DNA of 40,091 nt from Nitrososphaerota archaeon (lineage in GTDB: Archaea; Thermoproteota; Nitrososphaeria; Nitrososphaerales; Nitrosopumilaceae): positions 1 to 40,091 of the forward strand of contig JAJPKL010000005.1 of assembly GCA_021323705.1 (NCBI GenBank), read 5' to 3'. A model generated the notes under the pieces. The model was not told where the DNA came from, made no database searches, and was given only the letters and a program-made list of their open reading frames with translations. The translations under genes and the position numbers were made by a program. Shown in pieces: positions 10,874 to 36,997 of the stretch; position 1 is the first letter of the stretch, and every line of letters begins with the position of its first letter.

Positions 10874-10891
10874 CACTTCTGATTGTTCTAC

Positions 10892-11584
10892 ATGAAATCA
10901 TACTTTGTCACAGGTACGGATACTGGAGTAGGAAAGACTACAATAACTGCAGCAATTGCCGCCTTGCTTAGAAAACATGGCATAGATGTTGGCGTGATGA
11001 AGCCAATTGCAACGGGTGTAACGCAAAAGAATGGATTCAGGTCAGAGGATGTGGCATTGTTACATGCGGCTGCTCAGGTAAAAGATGATGAAAAAACAGT
11101 AAACCCTGTATTTTTGCCCCTGCCTACTTCTCCATATGACGCCTCAAAAATATTGAATGTAAAAATCGACATGTCACCAGTGTTTGAGAGATATGAATAC
11201 CTTGCAAAGTCTCACCAAATGGTACTAGTGGAGGGAATCGGGGGCATAATGACTCCAATTACAAAGGATTTCTTTGTTGCAGACATGATAAAGCAAATGA
11301 AACTTGAAACGATTATAGTAACACGCTCTACTCTTGGGACGATAAACCATACTGTCATGACAATTGAGATGTGTAGGAAATACCAGATTCCTGTCAAGGG
11401 TTTGGTAATCAATTATTTTGATGAAAATGGAACACATGCAGAAAGAAATGCTCCATCTACGTTACATGAAATTACAGGATTGCCAATTCTAGGTACAATT
11501 CCCTTTGTAAAAGATTACCAGAAACCAGAAGTGATGGTAGATATTGTAGAAAAAAATATTGATTTGAACGCCCTTATATCCTAA
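10892..11584 (+). CDS. bioD: Dethiobiotin synthetase (BioD)
   Basis: A 230-residue P-loop enzyme that closes the ureido ring of dethiobiotin from diaminopelargonate, CO2 and ATP. The N-terminal Walker A GTDTGVGKTT (residues 8-17 from this start) is diagnostic. KPIATGV, the ALLHAAAQ region and VEGIGGIMTPI follow as in the family. The frame extends three codons upstream to TTG 10883, but ATG 10892 fits both the TATA spacing and the family N terminus. It is separated from bioA by trmB1 and transcribed in the opposite direction. It overlaps the 11574 gene tail-to-tail by 11 bp. Confidence 0.94.
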   Translation: MKSYFVTGTDTGVGKTTITAAIAALLRKHGIDVGVMKPIATGVTQKNGFRSEDVALLHAAAQVKDDEKTVNPVFLPLPTSPYDASKILNVKIDMSPVFERYEYLAKSHQMVLVEGIGGIMTPITKDFFVADMIKQMKLETIIVTRSTLGTINHTVMTIEMCRKYQIPVKGLVINYFDENGTHAERNAPSTLHEITGLPILGTIPFVKDYQKPEVMVDIVEKNIDLNALIS

Positions 11585-12116
11585 AGATCTTAAGTTTTGA
11601 CTGTTTCTTGCCTGCTGTAAAGCTTATCAGGTCGTTTATTATCTTTGCAAAACTGAACTGCTCTTTATCAAGTGTGTATACTCTTGCATTTACTGGAATT
11701 GGCCTGTCTGCTACAAGCCATATGTTATCTGATTTTGGCTGTATCTTCTTTAGCTTGTCTACATTTTCTTTTATCGTATCCAATTCGTTAGTCTTTGAGA
11801 AATATATGACGACTACATCATCTGGATTTATAGAAAGTGTTCTGGCATCAGGTATTGCAACATCGATATCAACTGACTGGAACGAGGTCTTTCTCTGGCT
11901 TGGAATCATTGCTAAAGTTAGTAAATAATGAGTGAGACCTTCCGCTAGCGCGCCAAGCGTAGATTGCTTGTTTCCTTCTTCCTTGTCTAGATTAGATAGG
12001 CAGTGGTTGAAGATTGTGCTTATTGCCTCAGTACTCTCGCCTTGGGCAATGTCTGAGAGTATTCTTTTTTCCTGGTATTCGGAAATTGCATTGTACAAAA
12101 TGTCTTTAATTTCCAA
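11574..12116 (-). CDS. Unknown conserved-looking protein beside bioD
   Basis: A 180-residue soluble protein. The N-terminal half is helical (ILYNAISEYQEKRILSDIA). The C-terminal half alternates strands and charged turns: DIDVAIPD, DDVVVIYFSK, NIWLVADRPI. The D-x-D...D and later K pattern recalls nuclease-like or Rossmann-like cores, but no family can be named. A TATA-like TTTTAATTA lies about 26 bp before ATG 12116, so it has its own promoter. Its end overlaps bioD by 11 bp and its start follows trmB2, so it sits inside the biotin/regulator block. Confidence 0.7.
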   Translation of the reverse strand: MEIKDILYNAISEYQEKRILSDIAQGESTEAISTIFNHCLSNLDKEEGNKQSTLGALAEGLTHYLLTLAMIPSQRKTSFQSVDIDVAIPDARTLSINPDDVVVIYFSKTNELDTIKENVDKLKKIQPKSDNIWLVADRPIPVNARVYTLDKEQFSFAKIINDLISFTAGKKQSKLKIFRI

Positions 12117-27603: not shown

Positions 27604-27768
27604 CCTATTTTCCATTATTGGAAATGATAACCTGTAGTTATTTCTTGATGATGTGGCCATATCATGAAGGATAACTACATTTGTAACTTGTCGGGACGAA
27701 TAGATTTTCTGTATGTAATATTTAGTTACACGCTGATTGCTAAGACTGTTATCGTTTGACTGGTATTG

Positions 27769-28620
27769 ATGACAATTGACATGGCCGCATATTCAAAGAT
27801 GGACAGTTTAGAGACAACATCATATGATTATGAAATGTTAGTTGAAAAACTGCGAATTGAGTTGTCTAAATTTGGTCTCACAGCAAATCAATCAAAGGTA
27901 TTTCTATTTTTGGAAAAATCAGGACCTAACACGGCTACTCAAGTCAGTAAATCGCTTAAGATACCAAGGACTGAGACTTATCACCTTCTTACCAATTTAC
28001 AAAACAGGGGAATAGTTCTTGCCTCTTTTCAGCATCCTATAAAATTTGCAGCCTTGCCGTTAGAAAAGGCAATCAATGTTCTTATCAATGCTGAAAAAGA
28101 GAGAGTAAAGCAACTTGAAAATCAAGAGAAAAGCTTGATCGAACTCTGGAACGTGCTTCCTGGATACAACATAAAACAAGACTATGTCAAAGACGGCAAG
28201 TTCCAAATGCTGCAGGGCATAAATCAAATGACTAGCAAGATAGGCGATATGATAGATGATGCAAAAAAATCTATTCAAGTTCTTGCCTCTGAGAAGGATT
28301 TCATGAAGTTCTATCATTCTGGATTTTTGGACAGAATGGAAGATTCTAGAGTGGAATCGCAGCTCATCTCATCCTCTTCAAAAAACACCCCCTACATCTT
28401 TAAAGGGAAATTAAAAGATAGAGCAAAAAAAATGCCAAACAAGATAAAAGAGGAACTCTGCTTTATCATAAAAGATGACGACGAATTATTGCTTTTTATG
28501 ACAAGCCCAAGCAAGCCATCCCAGGACATATTTGCAATGTGGACTGATTCTTTATCGATGGTCTACACATTAAAGTTATTATTTAGCTACATATGGTCTA
28601 ACTCCAGATACTTTACTTAA
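27769..28620 (+). CDS. TrmB-family transcriptional regulator, paralogue 3
   Basis: A 283-residue regulator related to those at 9891 and 12220 (FGLTANQSKVFLFLEKSGPN, PRTETYHLLTNLQNRGIV, a central FQMLQGINQMTSKIGDMI, an ASEKD motif, and C-terminal FIMWTDS-type sequence near FAMWTDSLSM). The winged helix lies at about 36-108. It is the most divergent of the three. ATG 27769 was chosen over TTG 27766. It stands between the pilus cluster and other regulators, so it may control either. Confidence 0.84.
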   Translation: MTIDMAAYSKMDSLETTSYDYEMLVEKLRIELSKFGLTANQSKVFLFLEKSGPNTATQVSKSLKIPRTETYHLLTNLQNRGIVLASFQHPIKFAALPLEKAINVLINAEKERVKQLENQEKSLIELWNVLPGYNIKQDYVKDGKFQMLQGINQMTSKIGDMIDDAKKSIQVLASEKDFMKFYHSGFLDRMEDSRVESQLISSSSKNTPYIFKGKLKDRAKKMPNKIKEELCFIIKDDDELLLFMTSPSKPSQDIFAMWTDSLSMVYTLKLLFSYIWSNSRYFT

Positions 28621-28710: not shown

Positions 28711-29352
28711 ATGTCAGGACTTGATATGCTTATTGGACAGTCGTTTGAAAATGCGCTAAAAAGTGCACTAGGAGAGAGAGTGTTATCAAAAATACAAAGC
28801 ACCATACTTGAAAGGTATGGGGTGACAATTAGTGATGCAATTGAAGACTTTCAAAAATTAGATTTTGCTTTAAAGGAATTATACGGCAACAAGACTGATA
28901 CCATTGAAAAGCAGATCATCGACAAGATATTCATACTTGAAGAAAATAAACACAATGACAGAAACTGGATTACCATAGAGGACGAGAATCTGGCCAAAGT
29001 AATACTTGAATCAGTTGGCGATTATGATAAAAAAAATATCTTAAATACAGTTCTTGACGAACCGCGGGTAATTTCAGACATTCTAAGTATGAACAACATA
29101 CCACAAACGTCAGGCTATAGAAAGGTTAACACATTAATTCAATACGGCATGTTGATTCCTCAAGGTTTTATGTCTACTAATGATGGTAAGAAGGTGACAA
29201 AATACAAATCTGTTTTTGAAAACATTGTAATAACGATAGAAAAGAACAAAGTGATTGTACGGGTGTTGCCGACTGCAGAAGCTATGAAAAAAAGCACTAT
29301 CTTGCAATTAATTGGCTCAAGATTTCCTTATGGACATATTCGTTGCACGTAA
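28711..29352 (+). CDS. NitrOD5-like winged-helix regulator
   Basis: A 213-residue regulator. The N-terminal part (about 1-70: GQSFENALKSALGERVLSKIQ, then RYGVTISDAIEDF and LDFALKELYG) resembles the NitrOD5 output domain common in Thaumarchaeota. The C-terminal part (about 105-195) is a winged helix: ILNTVLDEPRVISDILSMNN, IPQTSGYRKVNTLIQYGMLI, then a KKVTKYKSVFENIVITIE wing. No receiver domain is attached, so the input signal is unknown. A TATA box 26 bp upstream supports ATG 28711. It lies between trmB3 and the PII-cyclase gene. Confidence 0.72.
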   Translation: MSGLDMLIGQSFENALKSALGERVLSKIQSTILERYGVTISDAIEDFQKLDFALKELYGNKTDTIEKQIIDKIFILEENKHNDRNWITIEDENLAKVILESVGDYDKKNILNTVLDEPRVISDILSMNNIPQTSGYRKVNTLIQYGMLIPQGFMSTNDGKKVTKYKSVFENIVITIEKNKVIVRVLPTAEAMKKSTILQLIGSRFPYGHIRCT

Positions 29353-29528
29353 AATGATTTATCTATCATACCAGAGTTTTTTTATCTGCACTACAAAACA
29401 TCTTTGCAAAGACAATGATCTTAAACACGAATTGATATCTTTCTTATAATCTGATAATGAATTAAAACGTGAGAAATTACACACTGGTTTAAATTTGGTA
29501 GGAATCGCACTTTATCTAGACTAGACTC

Positions 29529-30806
29529 ATGATACGAATTGAAGCAGAAATTCCTAGAAATGACCTAATGGGAGTAAGCGATGCTCTTAGGATAATCGAC
29601 GTATCCGTAAATATCTCCAAGGTCAAGGGTAGAGGTAAAGGAGTAGGTTCCAAAGTCCACGCTGCAAAAGGCACTGAGATGTACAGGTCAGAATTTCAGG
29701 ACAAGTATGTAGTACAGGTAACCGTTCCAGATAACATTGAAAATGACGTAGTTGAGATAATAAAATCAAACTCAAAAACAGGCAAGATTACGATTTTCCC
29801 GGTATCTAGAGTCATAGATATTGGTTCTGGCGTTGAAAATGAACAAGCGCTTGCACTCAATGAATATGACAATGTAATATTGACTGCTGCAAAGAATCAA
29901 AACACATCTTTTCCCTTTGGATTTACCACTGAAAATCTCAAGGTTGTTCCCCCACAAATCGAAGGAGAGAAGGGATACTATGACGTACTTGAGAAAAAAT
30001 TTGTTCCGTTGAATGTGCTTGAATCAGTTATCTATCACGTAAAACCAATTGAAAGATTTCAAATCCTCTCTGCTGATGATTCTGTAGTGATAGAAAGCAT
30101 GACTAGAGTAAAGAGGAACTTTTCACTATACAAAATGAAGATGTCAGACTCGTATTCGCAGGCTTTTCTAAAATATGTGGCAAGCAGATTCTTGAGTCTC
30201 TGGCCAGAGCAAGAAATCAACGTCGCAATCCTATATGTAGATATCGTGGGTTCAACAAAGCTTGCAACTTTGCTCACCTCAGAAGAGCTCTCAGGACTGA
30301 TCAAAGTGTTCTCAGAAGAAATGTCTGTGATAGCATCCAAACATGCAGGTTTTGTGCTAAAATATGCAGGAGATGCCGTGATTGCTTTCTTTCCAGAACT
30401 CAAGGAGTTTGGGAACATGGCAGAAAACGCCATACGATGTGCACATTCAATGAACATGCTGATAAAGCACTCCCTCAACCCAATCTTTGCAAGCCTTGGC
30501 CTGCCAACTATAAGTGTGCGAATTGGCATAGATGCGGGCAAGAACCGAATAGTCTTTCTTGGCTCTGACCCTGATCTTATTGGACACAGCATCACAATAG
30601 TTTCAAAAATACTGCCCCTTGCCCAGCCCAATCAGACTACAATAGGCGATGCTGCATATCAAATGCTTTCTCCAGAATTTGCAGAACAATTTACAAAGAT
30701 TAATTCTGATGACAAGAGGTGGAACTATACTCATCCTGGTACCGGCAATATCTATCCAATATACTTTTCAAGGCATCTTGTACAAATCTCTGATCTGAAG
30801 GTATAG
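29529..30806 (+). CDS. PII-like domain fused to class III nucleotidyl cyclase domain
   Basis: A 425-residue two-domain protein. Residues 1-100 look like PII (GlnB/GlnK): RIEAEIPRNDLMGVSDAL, VSVNISKVKGRGKG, KGTEMYRSEFQDKYVVQVTV, then a shortened B-loop TGKITIFPVSRVIDIG. The T-loop lacks the usual uridylylated Tyr segment. After a 110-residue linker, residues 231-415 form a class III cyclase core with metal aspartates D238 (YVDIVGST) and D282 (KYAGDAVIAFF). By eye alignment, the catalytic Asn/Arg pair (VNxAAR) reads T356/K360 (ITIVSK), so activity may be changed or lost. If active, it could turn nitrogen or ATP/ADP state into cyclic nucleotide. Confidence 0.82.
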   Translation: MIRIEAEIPRNDLMGVSDALRIIDVSVNISKVKGRGKGVGSKVHAAKGTEMYRSEFQDKYVVQVTVPDNIENDVVEIIKSNSKTGKITIFPVSRVIDIGSGVENEQALALNEYDNVILTAAKNQNTSFPFGFTTENLKVVPPQIEGEKGYYDVLEKKFVPLNVLESVIYHVKPIERFQILSADDSVVIESMTRVKRNFSLYKMKMSDSYSQAFLKYVASRFLSLWPEQEINVAILYVDIVGSTKLATLLTSEELSGLIKVFSEEMSVIASKHAGFVLKYAGDAVIAFFPELKEFGNMAENAIRCAHSMNMLIKHSLNPIFASLGLPTISVRIGIDAGKNRIVFLGSDPDLIGHSITIVSKILPLAQPNQTTIGDAAYQMLSPEFAEQFTKINSDDKRWNYTHPGTGNIYPIYFSRHLVQISDLKV

Positions 30807-33824: not shown

Positions 33825-35330
33825 TCAGAAGAATTTCAAAAATAATATCATATGAGTGGTTGCGCCTGATATGTCAAGTATGTGGTTCTCTAGGAACTTT
33901 GATAGTGCCATGGTTGTACCATACATTGCGACACCGCCCAAAGAGCTGAGCATGGCTATGTTAAACCAGACTGTCTTGAAAAGCCCTCCTTGTCCTACTT
34001 TTATTGCCAAACCATTGATGGCAGATGTGATTATTATAACAAATGGCATCATTATGGCCATGAAATGCGGATCAATTGGGCTGAGGGTGATAGCGTTGTT
34101 TGAAATCTGTGTCCCAGTGATCATTGTGTGGAAAATCTCAATTAGCTTGTTCATCAAGCCGAAAATTGCCATGGTCAGAGCATGGAGTACCAAAACGATT
34201 GTCTCAAATGTCCTTGATGTCTGTCTTCTTTTTGCTCTAAGCTCGTTTAATTTTAGTGAGATCTCAGAAACCTTGTTTCCAACCTCATTCATGTTTGAAC
34301 CTTTTTGCATGGCATTTGCCATTATGGTGTTTCCTGACACTATGATTGATGTGCCGGCCTCTCGTGAGAAGAGCTCAAACCCAGTTTCTGGCCTTATCCT
34401 GTTCTTTATGCGATTTTTGAAGGCTACTATCTGCTTCTGAAGCGGCCCAAAATCGCTCCTCAGAACTGCGTCAAGCGTCTGACCCATTGATCCCACCATC
34501 ATGTATATCTCCCCAAAATGTCGGATAAAGGAAGGATACCATTCATCCAGAGCTTGTAGATCTGATTCCATCTTCTTTGCGTAATATCCAGGAATGAATA
34601 ACGGCGCTGTTGCAACCACTGCAACCAATGGAAGCGGAATTACATTGGTGATGGCCAGCACGATTCCAACAGAAGACCCCATTCCTATTGACATGTAGAG
34701 CAGCATTTTGAATTTCTGTGACTTTGAATAGTCTCCAACGGATATTTTGTCCCTTGGAAACAGCATGTACATGATAACTATGAATGAGCCCATGCTTACA
34801 ATCACACCTATGAACGAAATCATAAATACAGACTGGGAATCCGTACTTCCCATAAGCATTGTCATGATAGAATTTCCAGATATCATAAATACAGCTGTGG
34901 ACGAGATGGTGTAAAACATTTCAAGGAAGAGTTTCTGCGTTTCCAAGTTGCGCTCATACCTTATTGTAAAGTTGTGGATGGTGGCAGACATTTCATCTGT
35001 AAAGAATACCCTCAATTCATCTCCCAATCGTATAACCTGGGCAAGCTTTACGAGCAACTGCTTCATCGGATCAGCATTGTCTGAAAACTTTAACGCAATC
35101 ATTTCACATGATCTTGCAAGGCCGTAGCCCCATCCAACTCCTAACCTGAAAACGTCTTTGAAAGTATTGGAATATTTTCCGTATCCTGAAGACTGTGCGG
35201 TCTTTATTAGGTCGACGGAACCCACTTCTCCTGTAGACAACGCATAAAGAAACGCCATGAAATAAACAAACTCGTCGTCAGCCCTCTTGATGGACCCAAG
35301 TTTTTCTTTAAGTGTCGTCTTTTGCTTCAT
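33825..35330 (-). CDS. arlJ: Archaellum membrane platform protein ArlJ (FlaJ)
   Basis: A 501-residue polytopic membrane protein of the GspF/TadC family. The first cytoplasmic domain spans about 20-140, and membrane segments follow at about 145-165, 172-192, 210-235 and 237-250. A second cytoplasmic GspF domain (about 255-370, with MVGSMGQTLDAVLRSDFG) and three or more C-terminal membrane helices complete it. It forms the base through which archaellin is inserted and the filament turned. Its ATG overlaps the arlI stop as ATGA. It is the last gene of the operon. Confidence 0.9.
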   Translation of the reverse strand: MKQKTTLKEKLGSIKRADDEFVYFMAFLYALSTGEVGSVDLIKTAQSSGYGKYSNTFKDVFRLGVGWGYGLARSCEMIALKFSDNADPMKQLLVKLAQVIRLGDELRVFFTDEMSATIHNFTIRYERNLETQKLFLEMFYTISSTAVFMISGNSIMTMLMGSTDSQSVFMISFIGVIVSMGSFIVIMYMLFPRDKISVGDYSKSQKFKMLLYMSIGMGSSVGIVLAITNVIPLPLVAVVATAPLFIPGYYAKKMESDLQALDEWYPSFIRHFGEIYMMVGSMGQTLDAVLRSDFGPLQKQIVAFKNRIKNRIRPETGFELFSREAGTSIIVSGNTIMANAMQKGSNMNEVGNKVSEISLKLNELRAKRRQTSRTFETIVLVLHALTMAIFGLMNKLIEIFHTMITGTQISNNAITLSPIDPHFMAIMMPFVIIITSAINGLAIKVGQGGLFKTVWFNIAMLSSLGGVAMYGTTMALSKFLENHILDISGATTHMILFLKFF

Positions 35331-36997
35331 AACATGTTAAGCTCCTTCATGAATGCCTCCAACCCAATCTCCCTACAGTGAGATATGGAATCGTAGACAT
35401 CATAGAAATTGAAGATCTTTTTTTCGACCATCTTATCTAGTATGTTGGCCCTCATCGCAAGCTCTTCGTATAGTAACGTCTCATCTTTTCTTGAGAGGCC
35501 TCTCTTCTCAAGCACCTTGGAAATGAATAATGCGCTACTTCCCTTTCCCCTAAATTTCACTTCGTCCGACCCTGGGTCCCAGTTGAAAACTGGGATGAAC
35601 ATAACATTGTTTCCTTCCGGGTTGTATCCTAGGATTTCATTGATTGATAGTACCCTTCTTACCCTTTTCCCATCTGGACCAGAAACTGCAGCCTGAAACA
35701 ATGCAATGTTTAGGTTTTCTACATTGGTCTTTGGTATGTTCATGGGAGGATTGGTAATTCTCTGTATCAATGCAGTCATGTTGGCTGCGTGGAATGTACT
35801 TACCACTGGGTGACCTGTCTGCATTGCCTGAAAAGCAATGTTTGCCTCCGCCCCTCTGATTTCTCCTACAAAAATATAGTTTGGCCTCTGTCTTAGTGCA
35901 GCCTTTAACAAGTCGAACATGGTAACACTTGAGTTTTGGTTTCCCGTGTCTCTTGTAACTTCAGAAATCCAGTTTGAATGCGGAAGAGTAAGTTCAGGCG
36001 TATCCTCGATGCTTACTATCTTCCAATTGGAGGGAATAAAAGCGGTCAGGGCCATCATGGTGGTTGTTTTTCCAGATGCTGTTTCTCCGTTGATAAATAC
36101 ACTCATGCCTTCTGCCATCATCATCCACAAGTATGCCGCCTCTGTTGAATTCAGAGCCTTGCTTGGAAGTATCTGGGTTATGGACAGTGGAGTACTTGCA
36201 AACCTTCTGATCGTGGCGTTTGTTCCTTTCCTGCTTACGTCTTTGCCAAACACGATGTTAATTCTGGATCCCTCTGGCAAGGTTGCGTCAATTACTGGCT
36301 TTGCATGGGACACAGTCTTTCCAAATTGTTCCGACATTGAAATTATTAGATCATCTATCTCTTCAACCGATAGGAATACCGGACACTTTAGGGCTCCGAA
36401 CATTTTGTGAATGACATACATGTTTCCTGCTCCGACAACTGAAATGTCTTCCAGATGTGGGTCTGTCAGGAAGGGGTCAAGCAAGCCCATTCCGGCCCTT
36501 TTTCTTAGAAAATGGTACTTGAGATTGACGACATCCTTTTGGTATACGGGAAGGGTTTTCGACCTCATCACATCAATTTTAGAATAATCCACGGGGTTAC
36601 TGCTGATAGATATTGTCTTGTCTAAGTACTGGTCTATCATGTTAAAGCGTTCTGTGAGCTCAACTGGCGGATTCATTGTGCCAGCATGGAGTGCAAAAAG
36701 CCTGTCTGCTTGCTCCATCAGAGTCCTATCTGGCTCGTCTGGTTCTATAATTACATATTCCACATACCCATCGGCTGAGTTTGAGTGAGGATTTACATGT
36801 ATGTATGTAGTGTCAGAAATAGAATAGATGAGATTGGGCTCTTTGAGTTTCTTATGTTCGCCCTCTAGTTTTTCCGTGAATATCGGTATGGGGTTTCCTC
36901 GGTCTATGTAAGTTGCTATATAGTTAGCTAGGTGAGGTGATTTCTTGAGTGCTTCTGCAAACTTTCTGTCTTTTATTAGAGAGACATCAAAACCCAT
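35327..36997 (-). CDS. arlI: Archaellum motor ATPase ArlI (FlaI)
   Basis: A 556-residue secretion ATPase that drives archaellum assembly and rotation. Walker A is GETASGKTT (304-312), the Asp box SIEDTPE (329-335), Walker B YIFVGEIRG (374-382) with E379, and the His box TGHPVVSTFHA (394-404). The N-terminal domain (about 145-270) includes GLLDPFLTDPHLEDISVVG, typical of ArlI. The Shine-Dalgarno AAGGAGAG on minus (near 37005-37012) precedes ATG 36997. It overlaps arlJ by 4 bp and follows arlH by 42 bp. Confidence 0.94.
   Translation of the reverse strand: MGFDVSLIKDRKFAEALKKSPHLANYIATYIDRGNPIPIFTEKLEGEHKKLKEPNLIYSISDTTYIHVNPHSNSADGYVEYVIIEPDEPDRTLMEQADRLFALHAGTMNPPVELTERFNMIDQYLDKTISISSNPVDYSKIDVMRSKTLPVYQKDVVNLKYHFLRKRAGMGLLDPFLTDPHLEDISVVGAGNMYVIHKMFGALKCPVFLSVEEIDDLIISMSEQFGKTVSHAKPVIDATLPEGSRINIVFGKDVSRKGTNATIRRFASTPLSITQILPSKALNSTEAAYLWMMMAEGMSVFINGETASGKTTTMMALTAFIPSNWKIVSIEDTPELTLPHSNWISEVTRDTGNQNSSVTMFDLLKAALRQRPNYIFVGEIRGAEANIAFQAMQTGHPVVSTFHAANMTALIQRITNPPMNIPKTNVENLNIALFQAAVSGPDGKRVRRVLSINEILGYNPEGNNVMFIPVFNWDPGSDEVKFRGKGSSALFISKVLEKRGLSRKDETLLYEELAMRANILDKMVEKKIFNFYDVYDSISHCREIGLEAFMKELNML

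Follow-up and report, generated by a model that had tools for sequence, protein, structure and literature searches.

Why should a single archaeal reading frame carry both a PII-type nitrogen regulator and a class III nucleotidyl cyclase, and what might such a protein sense and make? Few nitrogen regulators are as widespread as the PII proteins, which usually act by touching separate partners; a cyclase attached covalently makes one such partner explicit. The frame studied here lies in a window of 40,091 nucleotides (the whole stretch of DNA analysed) on contig JAJPKL010000005.1 of a Nitrososphaerota archaeon. Its parts are listed in Table 1.

The initial annotation had read the frame as a PII domain fused to a class III cyclase, and profile searches of both parts, with a structure prediction of the first, bear this out. 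The P-II profile (PF00543) matched residues 1-98 (E 3.6e-6, 27.7 bits, curated cut-off 25) and the Guanylate_cyc profile (PF00211) matched residues 229-390 (E 4.5e-9, 36.6 bits, curated cut-off 21.9). Sequence matches among solved structures were of the same two kinds, E. coli P-II (1pil) over residues 3-107 and CyaB (3r5g) over residues 231-380. A model of residues 1-110 (pLDDT 80) has the ferredoxin-like beta-alpha-beta-beta-alpha-beta fold of PII proteins, and its best 50 fold matches in the PDB were all PII or GlnK structures, with TM scores up to 0.83 and a probability of 1.00. The full-length model, built with 11 orthologues, was poor (pLDDT 43) and only hinted at helices at residues 182-223, ahead of the catalytic domain.

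Table 1. Coordinates of the fusion gene, its promoter element and its parts within the window.
Feature	Position	Strand	Evidence or remark
TATA-box-like element TTTAAATTTGG of the fusion's own archaeal promoter	29488..29498	+	TTAAATT core conserved
Fusion gene, 425 aa (GlnK-type PII, connector, class III cyclase)	29529..30806	+	ATG start; 22 orthologues
PII/GlnK domain, residues 1-109	29529..29855	+	PF00543, fold search, tree, end-to-end alignment with amt-linked GlnK-b
T-loop, residues 33-57, Amt-type motif HAAKGTE..xxEF.DK	29625..29699	+	Identity to GlnK-b and GlnK-a
Shortened B-loop, residues 82-88	29772..29792	+	Five canonical residues absent; G85-K86 (= G89-K90) kept
C-loop, residues 95-101	29811..29831	+	Asp97 and Gly99 replace Arg101 and Arg103
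Junction linker, residues 110-125	29856..29903	+	Between GlnK-b stop position and stand-alone cyclase start
Connector, residues 126-225	29904..30203	+	Common to stand-alone cyclases; low-confidence helices 182-223
Class III cyclase domain, residues 226-416	30204..30776	+	Pfam PF00211, PDB matches
Asp238, first metal-binding aspartate	30240..30242	+	Invariant
Lys278 (adenine-specifying) and Asp282 (second metal-binding aspartate)	30360..30374	+	Invariant
Asp349, second adenine-specifying residue	30573..30575	+	Invariant
Thr356 and Lys360 at the transition-state Asn/Arg sites	30594..30608	+	Alignment of fusions and stand-alone relatives

The fusion is a real gene that is maintained under purifying selection. 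Among the 37 genomes searched from one Nitrosotalea-type genus, that of the window, 22 carry a full-length copy, with 71-95% identity to the window copy, and a further genome (G404) was found by the PII search to have the same long frame. N. sp. TS (G401) has a frameshifted copy; the frameshifts there (L019/L093) affect neighbouring genes too and resemble sequencing errors of that assembly. Estimates of dN/dS are about 0.05-0.09 in every part of the protein, rough values because dS is near saturation, and the cyclase part is the most constrained. The TTAAATT promoter core stands about 30 to 40 bp before the ATG at all 22 loci, despite differing upstream genes, and scans for bacterial sigma-70 promoters and intrinsic terminators returned nothing above chance, as expected for an archaeon. 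An assembly or frameshift artefact, a possibility left open by the initial annotation, is ruled out by the 22 full-length copies, two of them in single-contig genomes (G040 and G079); the low dN/dS and the conserved TATA-like box argue the same way.

The convergent neighbour of the fusion is purE in every locus, and in eight of the larger fusion loci a gene of about 190 aa (gene X) and bioD stand on the other side. Genomes that lack the fusion show the order purE-X-bioD, which is the empty site. In one of them (G106) a scrambled remnant of about 150 bp from the C-terminus of the fusion lies beside purE (L092 2070-2222), indicating that the fusion has been lost at least once.

Two details of the window itself concern its local gene order. 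The bioD and X genes are found at 10883-12116, about 18 kb from the fusion, a local rearrangement. A 213-aa protein that had no Pfam match (28711-29352) follows a TrmB-like regulator (27766-28620), and some relatives, though not all, have these two genes upstream of the fusion.

The initial annotation proposed a search for the same architecture in other Thaumarchaeota; the 22 full-length copies all lie in the window's genus. Outside it, no fusion was found in 400 genomes of the class, in 398 genomes of the phylum or, by a peptide-pattern scan, in species-representative contigs. Viral contigs yielded no relatives, and among the plasmid matches listed all were cyclase-only and none covered 80% of the query. 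These searches reach close relatives best, and bacterial PII-cyclase fusions of independent origin may exist. A full-text literature search, within whose reach most subscription papers and preprints did not fall, found no report of a PII-cyclase fusion. Both domains are known; their combination and its tie to a glnK-amt cluster appear to be new.

Both halves of the protein have close relatives that are complete proteins. Residues 1-109 align from first to last residue with GlnK-b, which is encoded next to amt, and in the PII tree the fused domains are monophyletic (99/98) and cluster with GlnKs of the amt-linked type (100/98). For residues ~122-415 the nearest relatives are stand-alone cyclases, about 300 aa long and free of any PII domain, and the remainder of the fusion begins where these begin. 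The origin is most simply explained by one fusion event in which two complete genes became linked end to end, with a linker of about 15 residues between them.

Directly after most of the stand-alone cyclases viewed in context, and on their strand, comes a gene for an ATPase of about 470 aa that matches GvpD and KaiC profiles. This pair, a class III cyclase of about 300 aa and then the two-part ATPase, is a recurrent two-gene unit of Thaumarchaeota (L043-L049, L051, L052, L054), of which we found no description in the literature examined. Close orthologues of the ATPase occur in six genomes of the genus (G106, G116, G129, G139, G393 and G403). A stand-alone cyclase is known in five of the six, the other being G403, in which, of these two genes, only the ATPase was sought. 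With these finds as a positive control, the KaiC/GvpD-like ATPase is absent from the window's genome.

The T-loop is the element by which PII proteins touch their partners, and in the fusion it is strongly constrained. It retains the motif HA(A/S)KGTE..xxEF, with a mean identity of 50% to GlnK-b and 45% to GlnK-a, against 20-27% to other PIIs. The initial annotation described a T-loop that lacks the usual modified Tyr segment; the segment is indeed altered in context and follows an insertion, but the tyrosine itself is present, Tyr52 aligning with the Tyr51 position in 21 of the 22 copies. The claim that the domain keeps the PII order of loops likewise stands for the fold and not for an intact B-loop, which is five residues short (approximately canonical residues 84-88 are deleted), and in the C-loop Arg101 and Arg103 have become Asp and Gly.

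The changes in the B-loop and C-loop fall on ligand sites. In methanococcal GlnK, ATP is contacted by Thr29, Ile38, Gln39, Gly87, Lys90, Arg101 and Arg103, among others, and 2-oxoglutarate by Arg9, Gln39, Gly41 and Lys58; adding a tag at the C-terminus disturbs 2-oxoglutarate binding (PMC8395244). Our alignment indicates that Arg9, Gln39, Gly87/Asp88, Arg101 and Arg103 are replaced or deleted in the fusion, and that Lys58 and Lys90 have the only side-chain contacts for which equivalents are kept; an invariant arginine (R10) stands one position after the Arg9 site. The GlnK C-terminus is not free, being buried in the junction. The fusion thus has neither the full set of ATP and 2-oxoglutarate side-chain ligands nor the free C-terminus of a PII protein. 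Most of these losses are common to the amt-linked GlnKs of the window's own genome, and they therefore count against canonical 2-oxoglutarate sensing and not against PII ancestry. Judged by these residues, the PII part is probably not a canonical 2-oxoglutarate sensor, and the coupling to 2-oxoglutarate, ATP and ADP that had been proposed for the protein loses its footing.

What the GlnK part might answer to instead is suggested by the genes that accompany the fusion. GlnK-type proteins normally control the ammonium transporter, and ammonia-oxidising archaea live on ammonium. All 15 near-complete genomes of the genus that have the fusion carry glnK-glnK-amt, that is, a glnK pair and a GlnK-linked Amt, while none of the four near-complete genomes without it (G097, G106, G116 and G125) has the glnK pair or the GlnK-linked Amt, a raw count that is not corrected for phylogeny. 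These four keep only a more distant Amt (45-47% identity), and exceptions to the co-occurrence are confined to genomes at most 84% complete. The fusion-less genomes are spread over several lineages in a weak tree of purE and PII, used because too few genomes yielded the marker gene (35327-36997) on which a species tree could have been based. Ammonium uptake may on this evidence be wired straight to a cyclic-nucleotide signal, although a shared niche could cause both absences.

As to the cyclase, the metal-binding aspartates D238 and D282 and the adenine-specifying pair K278/D349, which is of the adenylyl type, do not vary among the 22 fusions or the stand-alone relatives examined. The transition-state Asn/Arg pair is missing, and its sites were correctly read at the outset as Thr356 and Lys360. 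Position 356 is Thr in 21 of the 22 fusions and Ser in the other (L035). Across the relatives the Asn site varies: it is Thr in the stand-alone cyclases of the genus and in L046, Ser in L047-L049 and the C20-type paralogue, and Asn in L050 and the C44 paralogue. Position 360 is Lys in all fusions and in every thaumarchaeal relative examined. Ma1120, with Ala at the Asn site, and Rv1900c, with His, are both active (PMC4215837, PMC4886424). For Lys at the Arg site we found no characterised precedent in the literature examined, and the change from Arg to Lys may lower activity. Since the metal and adenine residues are invariant and cyclases that lack the Asn are active, an active, ATP-specific enzyme is the more likely reading. 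The initial annotation had drawn altered chemistry or a dead cyclase from Thr356/Lys360, a proposal that sits poorly with the invariant metal and adenine residues, the active Asn-less enzymes and a lysine that is universal among the relatives.

With moderate confidence, and from sequence and gene context, we take the genus-specific fusion to be a cyclase specific for ATP and linked to the GlnK/Amt ammonium system, and not a canonical 2-oxoglutarate sensor. The GlnK part would assemble as a PII-like trimer, either with itself or together with free GlnK, and its role would be to dock and regulate, responding through its T-loop to the state of GlnK/Amt ammonium uptake. The connector helices would pass the movement on to the cyclase dimer, and this dimer would make cAMP from ATP. 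Given trimeric PII proteins and dimeric class III cyclases, a hexamer would be the simplest way to close the assembly, with three cyclase dimers bridging two PII trimers. This symmetry mismatch has to be solved by the protein and counts against our explanation. A bolder version, tentative at best, has GlnK replace the KaiC/GvpD-like ATPase as the cyclase's partner in an Amt-coupled cAMP switch, with binding to Amt or to GlnK trimers setting the cAMP output, the hexamer as its assembly and an effector of an unknown type downstream.

That the PII part might nevertheless bind ATP, ADP and 2-oxoglutarate in its inter-subunit clefts and gate the cyclase, so that cAMP reports nitrogen and energy status, accords with the PII fold, the two retained lysines and R10, but is unlikely given the lost ligand residues and the occupied C-terminus, the more so as a tag there is enough to disturb binding in the methanococcal protein (PMC8395244). 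A second use of the pocket would be feedback. Cyanobacterial SbtB binds several adenine nucleotides, cAMP included (PMC10117731), and a PII pocket that has lost the gamma-phosphate contacts Arg101/Arg103 and kept Lys90 might similarly bind AMP or cAMP and so sense the enzyme's own product or the energy charge. SbtB belongs to another branch, and free amt-linked GlnKs that have no cyclase show the same losses, which makes this reading highly improbable.

Other readings take function away from one of the two halves. The degraded ligand contacts would suit a PII part that is only a trimerising handle, fixing oligomeric state or solubility with no part in signalling; we consider this quite unlikely, as the T-loop is under strong constraint, with its amt-linked motif retained, and the presence of the fusion tracks the glnK-amt cluster. 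A cyclase fold that no longer catalyses and acts as a nucleotide-binding or dimerising module is also improbable. Both transition-state residues differ from Asn/Arg, and the window's genome has no CRP-type effector: the cNMP-binding profile PF00027, of the CRP/PKA type, had no match there and was positive in 10 of 14 control genomes, so that no route onward from cAMP can be seen. Against such a pseudoenzyme stand the invariance of the metal and adenine residues across the 22 fusions and their stand-alone relatives, the constraint on the cyclase, which exceeds that on the rest of the protein, and the activity of Ma1120 and Rv1900c (PMC4215837, PMC4886424). An enzyme tied to the GlnK/Amt system, our preferred reading, would give reason to look for an archaeal cAMP effector. 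The series of genomes, with the cyclase and its ATPase, with the fusion, and with the fusion missing along with amt/glnK, turns this into a testable hypothesis for archaeal ammonium signalling.

Several known systems resemble the fusion in part. The bacteriophytochrome-adenylate cyclase 6fht and the photoactivated cyclases 5x4t, both among the sequence matches of its cyclase part in the PDB, also place an N-terminal sensor and connector helices before a class III domain, but are dimeric and sense light. We know of no fusion of a sensor to a class III cyclase in which the sensor is a PII protein. The amt-linked GlnKs of the same archaea (G000 contig C24), the sister clade of the fused domains, share the PII fold, the shortened B-loop and the T-loop motif and also lack Gln39 and Arg101/Arg103; they differ in being free proteins of about 110 aa with a free C-terminus, Phe at the position of Tyr52 and no enzyme attached. 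The stand-alone thaumarchaeal cyclases (L043-L049, L051, L052) are alike in connector and catalytic domain (38-53% identity), including the Asp/Lys/Asp/Asp signature and the Lys at the Arg site, but have no PII domain and are directly followed by the ATPase gene, which is absent beside the fusion. In Ks-Amt5 of Kuenenia stuttgartiensis, an Amt-histidine kinase, ammonium-uptake machinery is likewise covalently joined to a signalling enzyme and a trimeric core bears a normally dimeric module, although the fused partners are the transporter itself and a kinase in that case, and a soluble GlnK and a cyclase in ours (PMC5764959). SbtB, too, ties a PII superfamily fold to cAMP and a transporter; it stands alone, belongs to a different branch with an R-loop, has cAMP for its ligand and controls the uptake of bicarbonate (PMC10117731). 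The Azospirillum PII network links PII to cyclic-nucleotide second messengers as well, through protein contact with c-di-GMP turnover enzymes and not by fusion, and the nucleotide is another one (PMC7646526).

The surroundings of related genes yielded further observations. The amt-linked tandem GlnKs (L005/L097 on G000:C24, L098, L100 and L052), with their B-loop five residues short and without Arg101/Arg103, probably bind nucleotide and 2-oxoglutarate in an unusual way. In G129, which also has the fusion, the stand-alone cyclase-ATPase pair adjoins glnK-glnK-amt in convergent orientation (L052 4596-9020, G129:C169); G393 and G116 have the same cyclase-ATPase neighbourhood without glnK/amt. 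The third cyclase of the window's genome, a stand-alone protein (247 aa, L099 4215-10116, G000:C44), lies between an amino-acid permease and GatD/GatE, names that are our reading of the sequences, and a PII gene ends this cluster. Together with the G129 locus, it puts cyclase genes next to PII genes at more than one site. A broken PII gene of the gatD/gatE-linked type is present in G106:C3 (L096 3205-3444).
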